Notes under the pieces: generated by a model
Database searches by the model: none
Told to the model about the DNA's origin: nothing
What the model saw: only the letters and a program-made list of their open reading frames with translations
Shown here: positions 14,608 through 23,145 of the stretch, one piece after another
Layout: every line of letters starts with the position of its first letter
Position numbering within the stretch: the stretch's first letter is position 1
Source of the DNA: Alphaproteobacteria bacterium
Lineage (GTDB): Bacteria > Pseudomonadota > Alphaproteobacteria > Micavibrionales > Micavibrionaceae
Length of the DNA stretch: 64,000 bases
NCBI GenBank assembly: GCA_030750865.1
Contig: JASMHE010000008.1
Location: 620,001-684,000, forward strand
Direction: 5' to 3'
Position numbers and translations under genes: made by a program

Positions 14608-14931
14608 ATGAAGCATGACCTCATTCACATTCAAGGTAAACCTTACGCGCTTGTTCCGTTGCATGAATACCGCCTCATGAGCGGCATCAAGCAAGACAAC
14701 ACCAATGACGACCTACCTGATGACTTAAAAGACGCGCTCTTTGCGCGTCAGGAACATCCGGTTAAAATCCTGCGGGAATATCGCGGCTGGACACAAGCCG
14801 AACTGGCCAACAAAGCAGGCATATCCCGCCCTTACCTCACCGAAATCGAAACAGGCAAGAAAAACGGCTCGGTCCAGGCGATTAAATCCCTCGCGGACGC
14901 ACTGGATGTTGATACAGGCACGATTATTTAA
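14608..14931 (+). CDS. XRE-family regulator with antitoxin-like N-terminus
   Basis: 107 residues. The C-terminal part (about 53-107) is an XRE helix-turn-helix: LREYRGWTQAELANKAGISR, then YLTEIETGKK and LADALDV. The N-terminal 40 residues (HIQGKPYALVPLHEYRLM) resemble the short strand-helix start of Phd-type antitoxins. It precedes the GIY-YIG gene by one base, so the two are surely translated together and this protein probably represses the pair. Its own function as antitoxin is inference. Confidence 0.85.
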   Translation: MKHDLIHIQGKPYALVPLHEYRLMSGIKQDNTNDDLPDDLKDALFARQEHPVKILREYRGWTQAELANKAGISRPYLTEIETGKKNGSVQAIKSLADALDVDTGTII

Positions 14932-14932
14932 G

Positions 14933-15805
14933 ATGAAAAAAAATAACGCAAAAACGATTGAAATCTTCTTACCAGACGGAAGCCCCAAGAGCATAAAAGT
15001 GGCGAGCATAACAAGTCGCACTGCTGAAGTCACTTACATCCCTCGTTCAAAATTAGAACATGCAAAAAAACGAGATAGTCTCCACAATGTAGGCATATAC
15101 CTATTGGTAGGCTCTTCAGAAGAACACGCAAAAAAAGAAGTATATATCGGAGAAGCAGAAAACTGTTTAATTAGGTTATCTCAGCATAACGCGACTAAAG
15201 ATTTCTGGGACTATGCCCTAGTCATTACGTCGAAAACAAATCAGTTCACAAAAACACATGTAAAATATTTGGAATGGCTTGCTTGCAAACTTGGGCGAGA
15301 AACCAAAAGATGTACTATAAACAATTCTACAACGCCATCAAAACCTTACGTCAGCGAATCTATGGAAGCTGACCTAATTGACTGTTTCGAGACTATCTCA
15401 ACACTGGTATCCACTCTTGGCCTTCCTATTTTCCAATCAACTAGAAATCAGGAAAGCGCAGAAAAAGAAAACCAACAAATTTTCACAATTTCGCGCCGTG
15501 GCATATCAGGAAACGGTATGTATACCGATGAAGGTTTTGTTGTACTAGCAAACTCCAAATTTCACAAAGAAACAACTCCTTCTCTTGCCCCTGCCGTCAT
15601 AAAAGAGAGAGAGCAACTCTTGAATGATGACTTACTACAGGAAACTGACAAACACTACGAACTGAAGGAAGATGTCTTGTTCAACAGTCCATCCTACGCA
15701 GGTGCTTGTGTTACGGGCCGAAGCACAAATGGCTGGACAGCATGGAAGCTACAAACTGGGGAAACACTTTCCGATGTCTACAGAAAAGACACAACAAAAG
15801 CCTGA
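14933..15805 (+). CDS. GIY-YIG nuclease-type protein with DUF4357 C-terminus
   Basis: 290 residues. GIY at 54-56 and YIG at 71-73 (VGIYLLVG, VYIGEA), Arg81 and Glu114 fit the GIY-YIG nuclease core. The C-terminal part (about 250-285: FNSPSYAGACVTGRSTNGW) is DUF4357, often found in restriction- or defence-related proteins. The start at 14933 is chosen because it sits one base after the XRE stop; an upstream in-frame start (14741) would bury it inside that gene. The base use is more A+T-rich than its neighbours, with AGA, ATA and CTA codons, suggesting acquisition by transfer. It ends two bases before the convergent amidase gene. Confidence 0.85.
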   Translation: MKKNNAKTIEIFLPDGSPKSIKVASITSRTAEVTYIPRSKLEHAKKRDSLHNVGIYLLVGSSEEHAKKEVYIGEAENCLIRLSQHNATKDFWDYALVITSKTNQFTKTHVKYLEWLACKLGRETKRCTINNSTTPSKPYVSESMEADLIDCFETISTLVSTLGLPIFQSTRNQESAEKENQQIFTISRRGISGNGMYTDEGFVVLANSKFHKETTPSLAPAVIKEREQLLNDDLLQETDKHYELKEDVLFNSPSYAGACVTGRSTNGWTAWKLQTGETLSDVYRKDTTKA

Positions 15806-18000: not shown

Positions 18001-18051
18001 GCACGGTACAGCACGGCACACCGTCGCTATGACTTAATTTCGCTATGACTT
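18001..18051. repeat. Tandem repeats spanning the comF stop codon
   Basis: Two adjacent repeats lie in the ubiH/comF spacer: a ten-base unit GCACGGTACA/GCACGGCACA at 18001-18020, and CGCTATGACTT at 18025-18035 and 18041-18051 (period 16). The right copy of the second includes the comF stop codon and its last two codons, so the gene's 3' end is duplicated just beyond itself. Confidence 0.8.
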
Positions 18052-18780
18052 GATCACACGCGCCACCGTCAAAACAGAAACACCGGCCGCGCCGCCATCT
18101 TTCTTCAACACACGCGCACATTCCGAAATGGTCGCCCCCGTTGTAAACACATCATCAATCAGCACAATATGCTTATCCCTGATCTGCGACTGACAACGGG
18201 GATTCACGGCAAATGCTTTGGCCACATTCTTGTGCCGTGCGGACGATGATAAAACACCTTGTGTGGCCGTTGCCCGCGTCCGTAACAAGCCATCAAGCAA
18301 AACGGGGATTTCATTTTTACAGGACAGCGCTTTTGCAAGCTCGGCCGCTTGATTATAGCGCCGCCGCACAAGCCGCGTATAATGCAGCGGCACAGGCACA
18401 AGATAATCAGCACGCGCGAACAAAGGTTGCCCGGCCCGCACAAGCCACGGTGTTAAGGCGTTCACAAGATGCATTTGATCGGCATGTTTAAATCGCAAAA
18501 TAATATCGCGGCTCGTATCATTATAACGTACTGCGGACCGCGCCAGATCGAAAGCCGGTGTTTCATGATGGCAAGCCGCACAGATTTGATCGTCACCACC
18601 TGCATCAAAATCAAACGGATAGCCACACGTGTCGCAATGCGGATCGGATATAAACGCCAGCCCGCTCCAGACTGCCGCCGATAACATGCCGTCATCATCA
18701 ACGATATCCCCCGTCACCGGACAGCGCGCCGGGAGAATAAGGTCGATGCCTTGCCGTATCATGTTCTTGAATCGCTGCAA
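18043..18780 (-). CDS. comF: ComF-family phosphoribosyltransferase-like protein
   Basis: 245 residues. An N-terminal zinc-finger region (CPVTGD, then CDTCGYPF and CAACH, about residues 19-80) precedes a type I phosphoribosyltransferase domain with PRPP loop IVLIDDVFTTGATI near 203-216. ComF proteins act in DNA uptake in competent bacteria, though many carriers are not known to be transformable and the biochemical role is unsettled. Other competence genes are not in the window. Confidence 0.9.
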   Translation of the reverse strand: MQRFKNMIRQGIDLILPARCPVTGDIVDDDGMLSAAVWSGLAFISDPHCDTCGYPFDFDAGGDDQICAACHHETPAFDLARSAVRYNDTSRDIILRFKHADQMHLVNALTPWLVRAGQPLFARADYLVPVPLHYTRLVRRRYNQAAELAKALSCKNEIPVLLDGLLRTRATATQGVLSSSARHKNVAKAFAVNPRCQSQIRDKHIVLIDDVFTTGATISECARVLKKDGGAAGVSVLTVARVIKS

Positions 18781-18938: not shown

Positions 18939-21494
18939 TTGATTAAAAAATTGAAAGATGTGCAAAACGAAGCCTTTGCATCGGGTTTCTCTGAAAAGGA
19001 GAAACAGGAGAGGACATCTTTAACTCCGTTTACAACATCCCTCCCCGCGACGACCTTCCTTCAAGACTATTACAGCAGACACGAAAAACTTCGTAACATT
19101 AAACCTTCTATTATCCGCCGCGCCTGGTTTGCGATGTCGCATTTATTGCTCGCAAACGGCAGCAAAGTACTGGATATCGGCTGTCACAGGGGGGCTGTTA
19201 CTTACGTGATGGCTGCGCTGAACCCGCATCTGGAATTTGTCGGCATGGATATCAACGAAAAACGCGTTGCCGTCGCCCAAAGCCGTTATCAGTTACCGAA
19301 CCTGAAATATATCCACGGCGATCTGTCCGATGCTGACACCTTCCCCGATAATAGCTACGATGCCGTTGTGCATTCCTATGTTCTGCACGAAATTTATTCA
19401 AAATATGCCCCGAACGAACAACCGGTCATCGAACATCTGGATGAATCGCTGCGTGTCTTGAAAGAATACGGACTTCTGTTCATCCATAGTTATCCGATGC
19501 CACCGCCCGAGGAATTCGTGTTGCTGGAACTGCCGGACCAGAAAAGCGACGGCGAAGACATTGAAAATCTGTCAACGGCAGACCTGCTTGTCTATTACTC
19601 GGAAAATGTACGCCCCAATCATGATAACAGCCATGACGGGTTTCTGCTGGAGGAGATACCGGCCCGCACGCCGCAGACACGGCTCTTCCGCCTGCCGTTC
19701 AAATGGGCCTATGAATTCATTATGCGCAAAGATGACCGCGAGGACTTCAACGAAGATCTGGACAAGGAGTTCACATTCTTCACCAAACGGGAATTCCGCA
19801 AAAACCTGCGCTCCCTCGGCGCGCGCGCGCTGTACACAACGCCCTATTGGAACGAACAATATATCAAGCAGCGCTTCGAAGACCAATTCCAGCTTTATAC
19901 AACAGACGGCCGGAAAATCAGTAATCCGCCGACCAGCTTCATTGCCGTATCCCAGAAACTGGCCAACGGAAAAAGCCTTCAAATCAATGAACGCCGCTTT
20001 TTGAAAGATGCCGTCGAAACAATCGAAGTCTCCGCCGTACGGAACGATTCCAACAACAAGACCTATGATATTATTTCACGCGGGATTGAATATACCGAAG
20101 TACTTCCATTCCGCACAACGGCCGACGGGCAGCTCTTTGTTTATATTCATGAAAATCTGCCGCGCGGCATTGCCAATTATATTCCGCGCGAAGGTAAGCC
20201 CGTTGACGGTAAAAAATGGTCCGGTCACATGACGGAAGCCATCGCTATCCCGACAGAGAAAATTGCCGAGCTCGGCGTGCCGAATTATAAGGATCTGGTA
20301 AAGTTCTTCATGCATGAAACCGGCCTGAAAGTGGCACAAGATGCCACATTGATGGAGGGAACGTCATATCTGCCCGCCCCTGATTTGATTGATGAACGCG
20401 TCCATACGCGGTATGTCCGTGTTCTGGAACAGGACTCTGTGATCCACCCCAAAGAGGTCAACAGCGATATTGACGGCTATTCCACGCAAGGCTGTTACCG
20501 CGAGATCAATGCGCAAAACCTGCTGAACGCCATTTCGGTCGGATTCATTCCGAACGCACGACTGGAAATGCAAATCCACAATCTGTACGAAAAGCTAGGC
20601 CTGACCTATGAAAACTGGGCCAACTGCCCGCTGAAACTGGAACTGGAAACACCGGAAAATATCGGCAGCGTTGAAAAGCTGAAAGAACAGATGGAAGAAA
20701 AAGACGACCGTTTCAAAAAGGTCAAAGGCATCGCCGGACAGGTCCGCGCCATGCACTCCCTGTTTGTCGAAGAAGGTTGGATTGATAACGGTATGAAGGG
20801 GCTGAAATCGCGCAAAGTCGAATTCGCCATCGCCGAAGACCAGATCATCAATCAGGCTGTCGTCCTGCCGCTGACAAAACACGCCAAATCCGGCAAGGTC
20901 ATGGCAGGTGTTGTGGCCGAATATCTGCCTGTGCCGCAACGCTATAAAGGCAACGGCCTGTGCCTGAACGCGCCGAGCTATAAATTACCGGCGTCTGTTA
21001 AAACAATGGAAGATGCACGTCATTTCATTGCCGAAGAATATAAAGTGACACCGGACAAAGTCTCGGCCCTCGGCCCGAGTTATTTCTGTCATGTCGGCGT
21101 CACACCAATGAGGATATTCCCCTTTGCCGTGGCCGCATCGAAAGCCGGAAAAACGCCGTTTGGCGGCCCTGTTACCTTTATGCCGGTTGCCGAACTTTAC
21201 AACATGATCAACATGGATAAACGGCACAATTATTTCTCCAGCTTTACGCTGCTGAACAGCATGAAACACGTCAATTTCTTCATGTGCGGCGAAAGTAACG
21301 TGCATGATTATGACTGGATGGGACTGGCAGAACAGGCGCAAGCCCATGAAACAGGATCGGCCATTCAATCTTCGATCGAAACGGCCCGCGCCGGTGCAGT
21401 CAGTATCCTGAAGAGCGCGCAAAACGATACAGATCACAGCACACGCGAAATCCGCACGGCCGTCGGCGGACATCAAAAATACGAAGCAAACTAA
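18939..21494 (+). CDS. Large methyltransferase fusion with Nudix-like C-terminal segments
   Basis: 851 residues, function unknown. Residues about 45-220 are a class I SAM-dependent methyltransferase: motif I KVLDIGCHRG near 74-83, acidic end of strand 2 in VGMDIN, then IHGDL and AVVHSYVLHEIY. The middle and C-terminal two thirds contain two segments that look like degenerate Nudix folds, each with a short helix pattern near the Nudix-box position (LVKFFMHETGLKV; ARHFIAEEYKV), but neither keeps the full GX5EX7REUXEEXGU signature. Translation begins at TTG behind AAGGGA; no earlier start is likely. No signal peptide or membrane span. The second methyltransferase follows 41 bases later. The domain reading beyond residue 350 is inference. 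Confidence 0.75.
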   Translation: MIKKLKDVQNEAFASGFSEKEKQERTSLTPFTTSLPATTFLQDYYSRHEKLRNIKPSIIRRAWFAMSHLLLANGSKVLDIGCHRGAVTYVMAALNPHLEFVGMDINEKRVAVAQSRYQLPNLKYIHGDLSDADTFPDNSYDAVVHSYVLHEIYSKYAPNEQPVIEHLDESLRVLKEYGLLFIHSYPMPPPEEFVLLELPDQKSDGEDIENLSTADLLVYYSENVRPNHDNSHDGFLLEEIPARTPQTRLFRLPFKWAYEFIMRKDDREDFNEDLDKEFTFFTKREFRKNLRSLGARALYTTPYWNEQYIKQRFEDQFQLYTTDGRKISNPPTSFIAVSQKLANGKSLQINERRFLKDAVETIEVSAVRNDSNNKTYDIISRGIEYTEVLPFRTTADGQLFVYIHENLPRGIANYIPREGKPVDGKKWSGHMTEAIAIPTEKIAELGVPNYKDLVKFFMHETGLKVAQDATLMEGTSYLPAPDLIDERVHTRYVRVLEQDSVIHPKEVNSDIDGYSTQGCYREINAQNLLNAISVGFIPNARLEMQIHNLYEKLGLTYENWANCPLKLELETPENIGSVEKLKEQMEEKDDRFKKVKGIAGQVRAMHSLFVEEGWIDNGMKGLKSRKVEFAIAEDQIINQAVVLPLTKHAKSGKVMAGVVAEYLPVPQRYKGNGLCLNAPSYKLPASVKTMEDARHFIAEEYKVTPDKVSALGPSYFCHVGVTPMRIFPFAVAASKAGKTPFGGPVTFMPVAELYNMINMDKRHNYFSSFTLLNSMKHVNFFMCGESNVHDYDWMGLAEQAQAHETGSAIQSSIETARAGAVSILKSAQNDTDHSTREIRTAVGGHQKYEAN

Positions 21495-21535: not shown

Positions 21536-22423
21536 ATGAAAAATGATATGCACATATTCGACCTGAACGCCGTGCGCCGCAACCGCGAACGCGCCATGCG
21601 CGGAGATGCTAATTTCCTGCATGACTGGTGCCTCGATAATGTGAAAGAGCGCCTTGCCGTCATCAAACGGGAATTCGATACAGCACTGATTTCAGGCGCG
21701 CGCGATTCCTTCAATCACGAAAAAATCGGGCACACTATTCATCTTGATCTGTCGCAAAAAACATTACCCGCGCAGAATGCGCATCCGGCGCACCTGATTT
21801 GTGACGAAGAAACACTGCCCCTGCGCATGAACAGCGCGGATGCCCTCATCGACATTTTATCCTTACACACAAAAAATGATTTGCCGGGAACCCTTATCCA
21901 AATCAACCGCGCCCTGAAACCTGACGGCCTGTTCGTCGGCACATTATTCGGCGGGGAAACACTGTTCGAACTTCGCAAGTCCCTGACCCATGCCGAAATG
22001 CAATGCCGCAACGGGGCGCGCCCGCGCGTTTACCCCTTTGTTGATAAACAGCAAATGGGCGCATTGATGCAGCGCGCCGGATTTGCCTTGCCGGTGATTG
22101 ACAGCGAATTAATCACCGTTAGCTACAGCGATATGTTCAGTCTGATGCGTGATGTGCGCCATATGGGCGAAGCCAGCGCGTTACACGACCGCACAAAATC
22201 CTTTACGGGGCGCGATATATTTATGACCGCCGCCGAATATTACCACAATACATTTGCCGAAACGGACGGCCGCATTCCCGCAACATTCGAGATTATTTTT
22301 GTGCTGGGCTGGTCACCACATGAAAGCCAGCAACAACCGTTAAAACCGGGCAGCGCAGAAGTCCGCCTTGCAGACTTGCTCAATACAACGGAAATCACAA
22401 CAGGGGAGAAAGCAAAGCCATGA
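21536..22423 (+). CDS. BioC/NDUFAF5-like methyltransferase-fold protein
   Basis: 295 residues. The start IFDLNAVRRNRERAMRG and later MNSADALIDILSLH, LKPDGLFVGTLFGGETLFELR and ARPRVYPFVDK are the marks of the alphaproteobacterial group related to NDUFAF5 (complex I assembly hydroxylase in mitochondria) and BioC. The glycine-rich SAM motif I expected near residue 45 is not visible (ALISGARDSFN stands there), so catalytic methyl transfer is doubtful. An alternative start is the ATG four codons later. gloB begins inside its stop codon (ATGA), so the two are coupled. Confidence 0.8.
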   Translation: MKNDMHIFDLNAVRRNRERAMRGDANFLHDWCLDNVKERLAVIKREFDTALISGARDSFNHEKIGHTIHLDLSQKTLPAQNAHPAHLICDEETLPLRMNSADALIDILSLHTKNDLPGTLIQINRALKPDGLFVGTLFGGETLFELRKSLTHAEMQCRNGARPRVYPFVDKQQMGALMQRAGFALPVIDSELITVSYSDMFSLMRDVRHMGEASALHDRTKSFTGRDIFMTAAEYYHNTFAETDGRIPATFEIIFVLGWSPHESQQQPLKPGSAEVRLADLLNTTEITTGEKAKP

Positions 22424-23145
22424 CCGCAACCGTAGAGATCATCCCTATTTTGGAAGATAATTATTGCTATATCCTGCAGGACAGCGCCACACAGAAAACG
22501 GCTGTGATTGATCCCGGCGAAGCCGAACCGGTCATTGCCTATCTGGAAGGCCGCGATATCACCCCTGACTTCATTCTGAACACCCATTACCACTGGGATC
22601 ACACAGACGGCAACGCCGCCATCAAAAAACAGTTTGGCTGCAAAATTATCGGCCCGACATACGAGGCCGCAAAGATACCGGGCATCGACCAGACATTGCG
22701 CGATGGCGACATTTTCCAATGCGGGGATATTGATATCAGCGTCAAATTAACCCCCGGCCACACGCGCGGCCATATTTGTTTTTACCTGCCACAGGATCAT
22801 ATTCTGTTTTCCGGTGACACCTTATTTTCAATGGGCACGGGACGCTTATTCGAAGGGTCTGCCGAACAGATGTTCGAAGGATTATGCTGGATCAAATCTC
22901 TGCCGCCGGAAACGATGATCTATGCCGGTCATGAATATACGCTGGATAATGCGGCCTTTTGCCTGTCTATCGAACCGGACAATGCCGCCCTGATCAAACG
23001 CGGAGAGCAAGCCCACGCCCTGCGCGCACAAGACAAGCCAACCCTGCCCGTTTCACTGGCGACCGAGCTTGAGACAAACGCCATGCTACGCGCATCAACA
23101 GCGGCGCAATATGCAGATTTGCGCACAAAGAAAGATCATTTCTGA
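22420..23145 (+). CDS. gloB: Hydroxyacylglutathione hydrolase (glyoxalase II)
   Basis: Hydrolyses S-D-lactoylglutathione in methylglyoxal detoxification. 241 residues of metallo-beta-lactamase fold: metal motif THYHWDH at 55-61, further ligands in TPGHTRGH and SGDTLF, and the C-terminal GHEYTLDNAAF that marks glyoxalase II. The C-terminal substrate-binding helix region is a little shorter than in the E. coli enzyme (251). It overlaps the preceding methyltransferase gene by four bases. Confidence 0.93.
   Translation: MTATVEIIPILEDNYCYILQDSATQKTAVIDPGEAEPVIAYLEGRDITPDFILNTHYHWDHTDGNAAIKKQFGCKIIGPTYEAAKIPGIDQTLRDGDIFQCGDIDISVKLTPGHTRGHICFYLPQDHILFSGDTLFSMGTGRLFEGSAEQMFEGLCWIKSLPPETMIYAGHEYTLDNAAFCLSIEPDNAALIKRGEQAHALRAQDKPTLPVSLATELETNAMLRASTAAQYADLRTKKDHF

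Follow-up and report, generated by a model that had tools for sequence, protein, structure and literature searches.

Within the window, the 64,000-nucleotide stretch of a Micavibrionales genome that was analysed here, a gene at 18939-21494 on the forward strand encodes an 851-residue protein in which a class I SAM methyltransferase is followed by two tandem domains predicted to have the Nudix fold and to lack the Nudix box. The gene is real, and the Nudix reading put forward in a preliminary description of the sequence is right in essence. That description also stated that no described enzyme with this layout was known to it. No description of a methyltransferase-Nudix pair architecture was found among the open-licence PMC papers listed in literature searches, but a tandem degenerate Nudix pair is already known from EvaA. 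The parts that appear new are the fusion and its wide presence in one bacterial order.

The gene and its methyltransferase part

In the ORF list and the genome check, 18939-21494 (+) is one open frame of 851 codons in a 2.19 Mb genome. It is coding, since homologues found throughout the order align with the greater part of it. Its first codon, TTG, is a plausible translation start and has GGGA a short way 5' of it. Scans for promoters and terminators performed no better than on shuffled sequence. The full-length predicted model reached a pLDDT of 78.3 and a pTM of 0.79, and residues 341-768 modelled alone reached 81.9 and 0.83; these models were built on alignments of only 39 and 37 sequences, respectively. 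Not a single column conserved at 97% or above was found in the variable N-terminus (residues 1-52, 19094 being its last base from the start at 18939; 50 sequences), where pLDDT is low at residues 13-34, or in the linker at residues 566-600 (20634-20738). The C-terminal tail (residues 769-851, 21243-21491) likewise has no conserved columns, and pLDDT is below 50 from residue 759 on.

The class I SAM methyltransferase takes up residues ~53-343 and includes a conserved insert. Its core (residues 53-199, 19095-19535) carries D104, H150 and, at residues 77-85, the motif I VLDIGCHRG, which is intact as the preliminary description had reported for the N-terminal part of this frame. Seven Pfam methyltransferase models matched above their cut-offs, the best being Methyltransf_11 at 5e-14 over residues 78-182. 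In structural comparison residues 55-343 aligned with TleD and YcgJ at a VIA Z of 21.1, in keeping with a Rossmann methyltransferase fold. Core fold and motif I are thus shared with the class I small-molecule SAM methyltransferases TleD, YcgJ and RebM (Z ~21), to which the protein described here adds the conserved insert and the C-terminal Nudix pair. Among 50 family members D79 is kept in 45, G81 in 49, C82 in 47 and D104 in 48, and 10 of the 147 columns of the core are conserved at 97% or above. The insert at residues 200-292 (19536-19814) has 9 such columns out of 93 and contains the motif GFFLEE...RLFRLPyKWAYEFimRKD.R. The last part of the methyltransferase, residues 293-343 (19815-19967), was placed by the model and aligned to methyltransferases.

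Other searches with the whole protein also led to this part. The matches listed from full-length structure searches are methyltransferases and the related cyclopropane-fatty-acid synthases. The NCBIfam matches listed (25 of 38) cover the same region as those of Pfam and are all below cut-off, and residues 190-851 are covered by none of the Pfam and NCBIfam matches listed. A PADLOC match to mad2 is confined to residues 10-190, and all five records returned by a plasmid search match the methyltransferase part only.

The tandem Nudix folds

From residue ~344 to ~768 the prediction shows two Nudix domains in tandem, both lacking a Nudix box. Copy 1 comprises residues 344-565 (19968-20633) and consists of N-terminal beta strands and a Nudix core; copy 2 comprises residues 601-768 (20739-21242). 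The top structural match of residues 341-768 was EvaA, whose alignment takes in both halves (8% identity over 318 residues, rmsd 4.4, VIA Z 16.3). With Foldseek the EvaA match had an E of 6.1e-8, a TM-score of 0.49 and an rmsd of 8.0, nearly tied with NudF and NudK, whose E values begin at 1.2e-7. Copy 1 matched the NudF ADP-ribose pyrophosphatases and the GDP-mannose hydrolase NudK at a VIA Z of ~11 (rmsd ~3, 15-21% identity), and the Nudix domains of NrtR at ~9.5, below NudF. NudF and NudK have in common with copy 1 the N-terminal strands, the Nudix core and a YYPSPG-like loop followed by an acidic residue, whereas the protein described here lacks the Nudix box, has the fold doubled and carries it fused behind a methyltransferase. 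NrtR has a single, degenerate Nudix copy that is not used as a plain hydrolase and is joined to a DNA-binding partner domain.

Nudix topology therefore occurs twice after the methyltransferase in the predicted structure and fold search, as had been proposed. The preliminary description had named, as outcomes that would speak against it, a fold without Nudix topology and a match to a single known large domain; the former did not occur, and the match to EvaA over both halves comes close to the latter.

At the level of profiles, neither PF00293 nor any other Nudix model was among the Pfam matches to the C-terminal part at E values up to 10, and the two PF00293 matches of the host genome lie elsewhere than in this gene. 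A C-terminal profile searched against PDB sequences gave four matches, all to unrelated proteins and at E values of at least 0.015. Aligned by hhalign to 30 NudF sequences, copy 1 scored 30.5 over 123 columns, which none of 150 column shuffles equalled (maximum 24.9). In this alignment WSGHMvE falls on the strand preceding the Nudix box and the helix segment LVKFFMHETGLKV on the Nudix helix, and YYPxPxxIDE corresponds to the YYPSPG-like loop. Copy 1 and copy 2 aligned to each other with a score of 34.5 over 43 columns (0/150 shuffles reaching it), and copy 2 to NudF with 19.5, a score matched by 11/150 shuffles. When repeated on 50 non-redundant rows, the three comparisons scored 31.1 (0/150), 33.9 (0/150) and 19.4 (4/150), respectively. 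The probabilities that hhalign itself assigns are 25.5% for copy 1 and NudF, 50.3% for copy 1 and copy 2, and 1.3% for copy 2 and NudF; the first two are modest, and the argument rests on the column shuffles. These profile comparisons support a relationship of copy 1 both to NudF and to copy 2, while a relationship of copy 2 to NudF appears weak. Copy 2 would thus be a Nudix fold mainly by virtue of the model and of its similarity to copy 1, and of the two Nudix-like segments originally proposed it is the first that has a profile link of its own to NudF.

The helices that had been singled out as broken Nudix boxes sit where they were placed. The segment LVKFFMHETGLKV lies at residues 453-465 (20295-20333), in the place of the Nudix-box helix, and ARHFIAEEYKV at residues 693-703 (21015-21047), where hhalign aligns it to the helix of copy 1; the model has helices at residues 450-460 and 690-701. 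Their letters, on the other hand, resemble a Nudix box partly by chance. E460, the glutamate of HETG, is found in 1/63 rows of the family alignment and E700 in 4/63; at least seven of these rows repeat the same gene, and counts redone on 50 rows less than 90% identical left the readings unchanged. What is conserved here is G462 (46/50) together with the YYPxPxxIDE that follows it. The strict Nudix box GX5EX7REUXEEXGU occurs in none of the 50 non-redundant members, the same pattern detecting 16 of 30 NudF controls, and the reading of the protein as an active Nudix hydrolase was rejected on this ground.

Copy 1 is conserved more than copy 2, with 16 of 222 against 6 of 168 columns at 97% or above in 50 sequences. 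R409, R417, S428, H430 and E433 of copy 1 are present in 50/50 members, D485 in 45/50 and E486 in 46/50. Because the first five of these are invariant while the Nudix box is absent, copy 1 conservation suggests that a working pocket has been kept without the glutamates of the hydrolases.

EvaA (PF03559; PDB 4J7G and 4J7H) has two degenerate Nudix copies per chain, as is predicted here. According to PMC8987622, it is an NDP-hexose 2,3-dehydratase whose pocket A is active through E139 and E190 and whose pocket B is a remnant; it is the first copy that is active in EvaA and the first copy that is better conserved here. The solved chains of EvaA, however, are 444-448 residues long and have no space for a methyltransferase, and identity is 8%, at which no dependable alignment of individual residues to E139 and E190 was obtained. 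No PF03559 match was obtained in the protein with Pfam scans or in its own genome, and hhalign to 11 sequences of the PF03559 family gave an E of 0.42, that is, no profile link. This absence counts for little, because hhalign also misses the link between PF03559-family sequences and NudF (E 0.87). Membership of the EvaA family was considered and rejected as unproven, there being no PF03559 match, an hhalign E of 0.42 and no TIGR01181 protein in the host at 1e-60.

Distribution within and outside the order

With the C-terminal profile at 1e-15, matches were obtained in 134 of 142 Micavibrionales genomes, some of them in short or split frames (e.g. G886, G883 and G939); among good-quality genomes the count is 94/98, and 53 of 54 genera are represented. 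Four of the eight genomes without a match belong to one genus, g48, in which four of the five genomes searched (G049, G052, G950 and G952) had none, possibly a natural loss. A search with the whole protein gave matches in 56 of 58 relatives' genomes at E values up to 0.001, some being weak matches to the methyltransferase only. The doubled and fused pair occurs in 134/142 genomes of the order, so its role in these bacteria is probably a general one.

The gene is rare outside the order. In a sample of 385 genomes of the class, full-length matches outside the order were found only in G204 and G242, and in a sample of 398 genomes of the phylum only the gene's own genome matched at 1e-30, with at most two candidates scored per genome in these searches. 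Within the families of G204 and G242 the gene is present in 2/17 and 4/75 genomes, respectively, in one genus each. The C-terminal profile, for which up to four candidates per genome were scored, gave eight matches in the 385 class genomes. Six are confident and lie in frames of 752-905 codons, room enough for the fused protein; the other two are marginal and from outside the family, and one of these, in G087, shares its reading frame and part of its extent with a match to NudF, which in turn stays below the family cut-off. No confident copy of a free-standing Nudix pair was thus present among these eight matches.

A tree of 25 of the 69 collected sequences, rooted for drawing only, separates two clades with full support on both sides. 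The first holds 19 members from the order, including the protein of the window. The second holds six shorter sequences, of which L086, L087 and L088 are second copies from within the order and L084, L085 and L150 come from outside genomes. Branches are long for L085 and L159. At one of the second-copy loci (L087, 4554-10259) the gene directly follows that of a 1163-residue repeat protein, whose repeats we take to resemble the ones found in haemolysin-type calcium-binding (RTX) proteins. At another (L086, 5011-10518) the second copy lies on the same contig as the usual copy, ~11 kb from it, behind a gene for a 100-residue membrane protein and others, presumably cytochrome b/c1-like.

Gene neighbourhood and possible function

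Gene context, in itself no proof of common function, was compared between the window and 43 loci from relatives. Upstream and divergent in the window is a comF-like gene (18043-18780, reverse strand; TIGR00201 at 1.2e-27, below cut-off), and of the 43 loci that could be tested, 40 have comF at most two genes upstream and on the opposite strand. Downstream follow a gene at 21536-22423 (+), matching BioC (TIGR02072) at 4.1e-21, below cut-off, and, overlapping it, the hydroxyacylglutathione hydrolase gene gloB (22420-23145, +; TIGR03413 at 5.7e-82, above cut-off). We refer to the former as BioC/NDUFAF5-like, the name NDUFAF5 being our assumption. On the same strand and within the next three genes, this partner is found in 31 of 36 testable loci, gloB in 28/36 and one or the other in 36/36. 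In 29 of the 31 loci, with starts taken from the longest ORFs, the partner overlaps the Nudix-pair gene or starts at most 41 bases downstream, and the two genes are probably in one operon. At eight loci from other families of the order (L154-L161) the partner lies within four genes in seven; it is kept in L155, L156, L157 and L160 though comF is not adjacent, and at L161 neither is near. SAM motif I of the partner is eroded in the window, degraded or deleted in many of 37 aligned relatives and deleted in L027, L028 and L042, yet the region NDLPGaLiQIrraLKPDGLF stays conserved in this alignment. Judged from these sequences, the partner may be a methyltransferase fold that serves another purpose.

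The explanation that we tentatively prefer, with confidence a little short of even, is a three-module protein, in which a methyltransferase with an insert is joined to a NudF-type Nudix pair unfit for hydrolysis, the pocket of copy 1 binding the substrate for methylation. The insert at residues 200-292 would perhaps be a substrate cap, and the tandem NudF-type folds would be unable to act as ordinary Nudix hydrolases. NudF-type enzymes bind molecules with a nucleotide or diphosphate-like group, and the copy 1 pocket (R409, R417, S428, H430, E433 and D485/E486) would bind a small molecule with a group of this kind. Copy 2 would mainly complete the pair, as in EvaA, and the methyltransferase would modify the bound molecule or a group attached to it; the BioC/NDUFAF5-like product probably belongs to the same process. 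The suggestion in the preliminary description that the Nudix-like segments are binding domains is accordingly a possible one. Were the substrate identified, this would establish a new role for the Nudix fold as well as a step of methylation, the C-terminal half of which escaped the Pfam and NCBIfam scans here. A more specific history, which we regard as rather unlikely, is a new enzyme type in which a NudF pair was duplicated independently of EvaA, lost hydrolysis, gained a new reaction or holding role on a nucleotide-linked metabolite at a conserved SxHxxE site and became permanently coupled to the methyltransferase. If this were true, a conserved step of metabolism, present in almost every genome of the order that was searched, would so far have gone unrecognised.

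In the strongest rival to substrate binding by copy 1, the Nudix pair would act as a regulatory sensor, turning the methyltransferase on or off in response to, e.g., ADP-ribose or an NDP-sugar. To our knowledge few degenerate Nudix domains with roles beyond hydrolysis have been recognised, the regulatory ones of the NrtR regulators and the TRPM2 channel among them, and these would be the precedent for a sensor. The fold kept without its Nudix box and the match of NrtR to copy 1 at Z ~9.5 agree with such a role, but NrtR scores below NudF, and the five residues invariant in 50/50 members would fit an active site equally well; we hold a sensor to be unlikely. EvaA is itself a degenerate Nudix protein with a role beyond hydrolysis, and its active pocket A and remnant pocket B, as given in PMC8987622, parallel the stronger conservation of copy 1. 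With EvaA also ranking first among the structural matches to the two copies together, this would be consistent with the C-terminal part being an EvaA-type NDP-4-keto-hexose 2,3-dehydratase, one chain then yielding a deoxy, methylated sugar. PF03559 and the profile comparison with its 11 members give no sign of this, however, and dehydration of the EvaA kind is less likely because dTDP-glucose 4,6-dehydratase (TIGR01181) was not detected in the host genome at 1e-60. That enzyme is present in 20/56 relatives, against 134/142 genomes of the order for the Nudix pair, and we consider an EvaA-type reaction very improbable.

In another alternative the protein and its NDUFAF5-like neighbour would jointly serve the assembly of the respiratory chain or the synthesis of quinones, with the Nudix pair as a protein-binding scaffold. 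This role draws on the tight pairing of the two genes, which persists at the four loci without adjacent comF, on the eroded SAM motif I of the partner and on a UbiH-type hydroxylase gene present in 27 of 49 loci. The partner was not seen, however, at L084-L088 and L150-L153, which are loci of the second clade or of its close relatives, and it is BioC, below cut-off, that the search tool names, the identity with NDUFAF5 being our own supposition; we regard this role as distinctly unlikely. The three-module explanation with substrate binding by copy 1 is the one that we retain.

At three of these loci (L085, 7304-10255; L152, 8053-11047; L153, 1392-5108) a metallo-hydrolase of the gloB cluster adjoins the gene, the other neighbours being unlike those of the window; these three come from family f73, which is represented by four genomes. 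Elsewhere in the window, at 14608-15805, the gene for a small helix-turn-helix regulator and an ORF containing VGIYLLVG...VYIGEAENCLIRL, a stretch that is presumably GIY-YIG-like, overlap each other.
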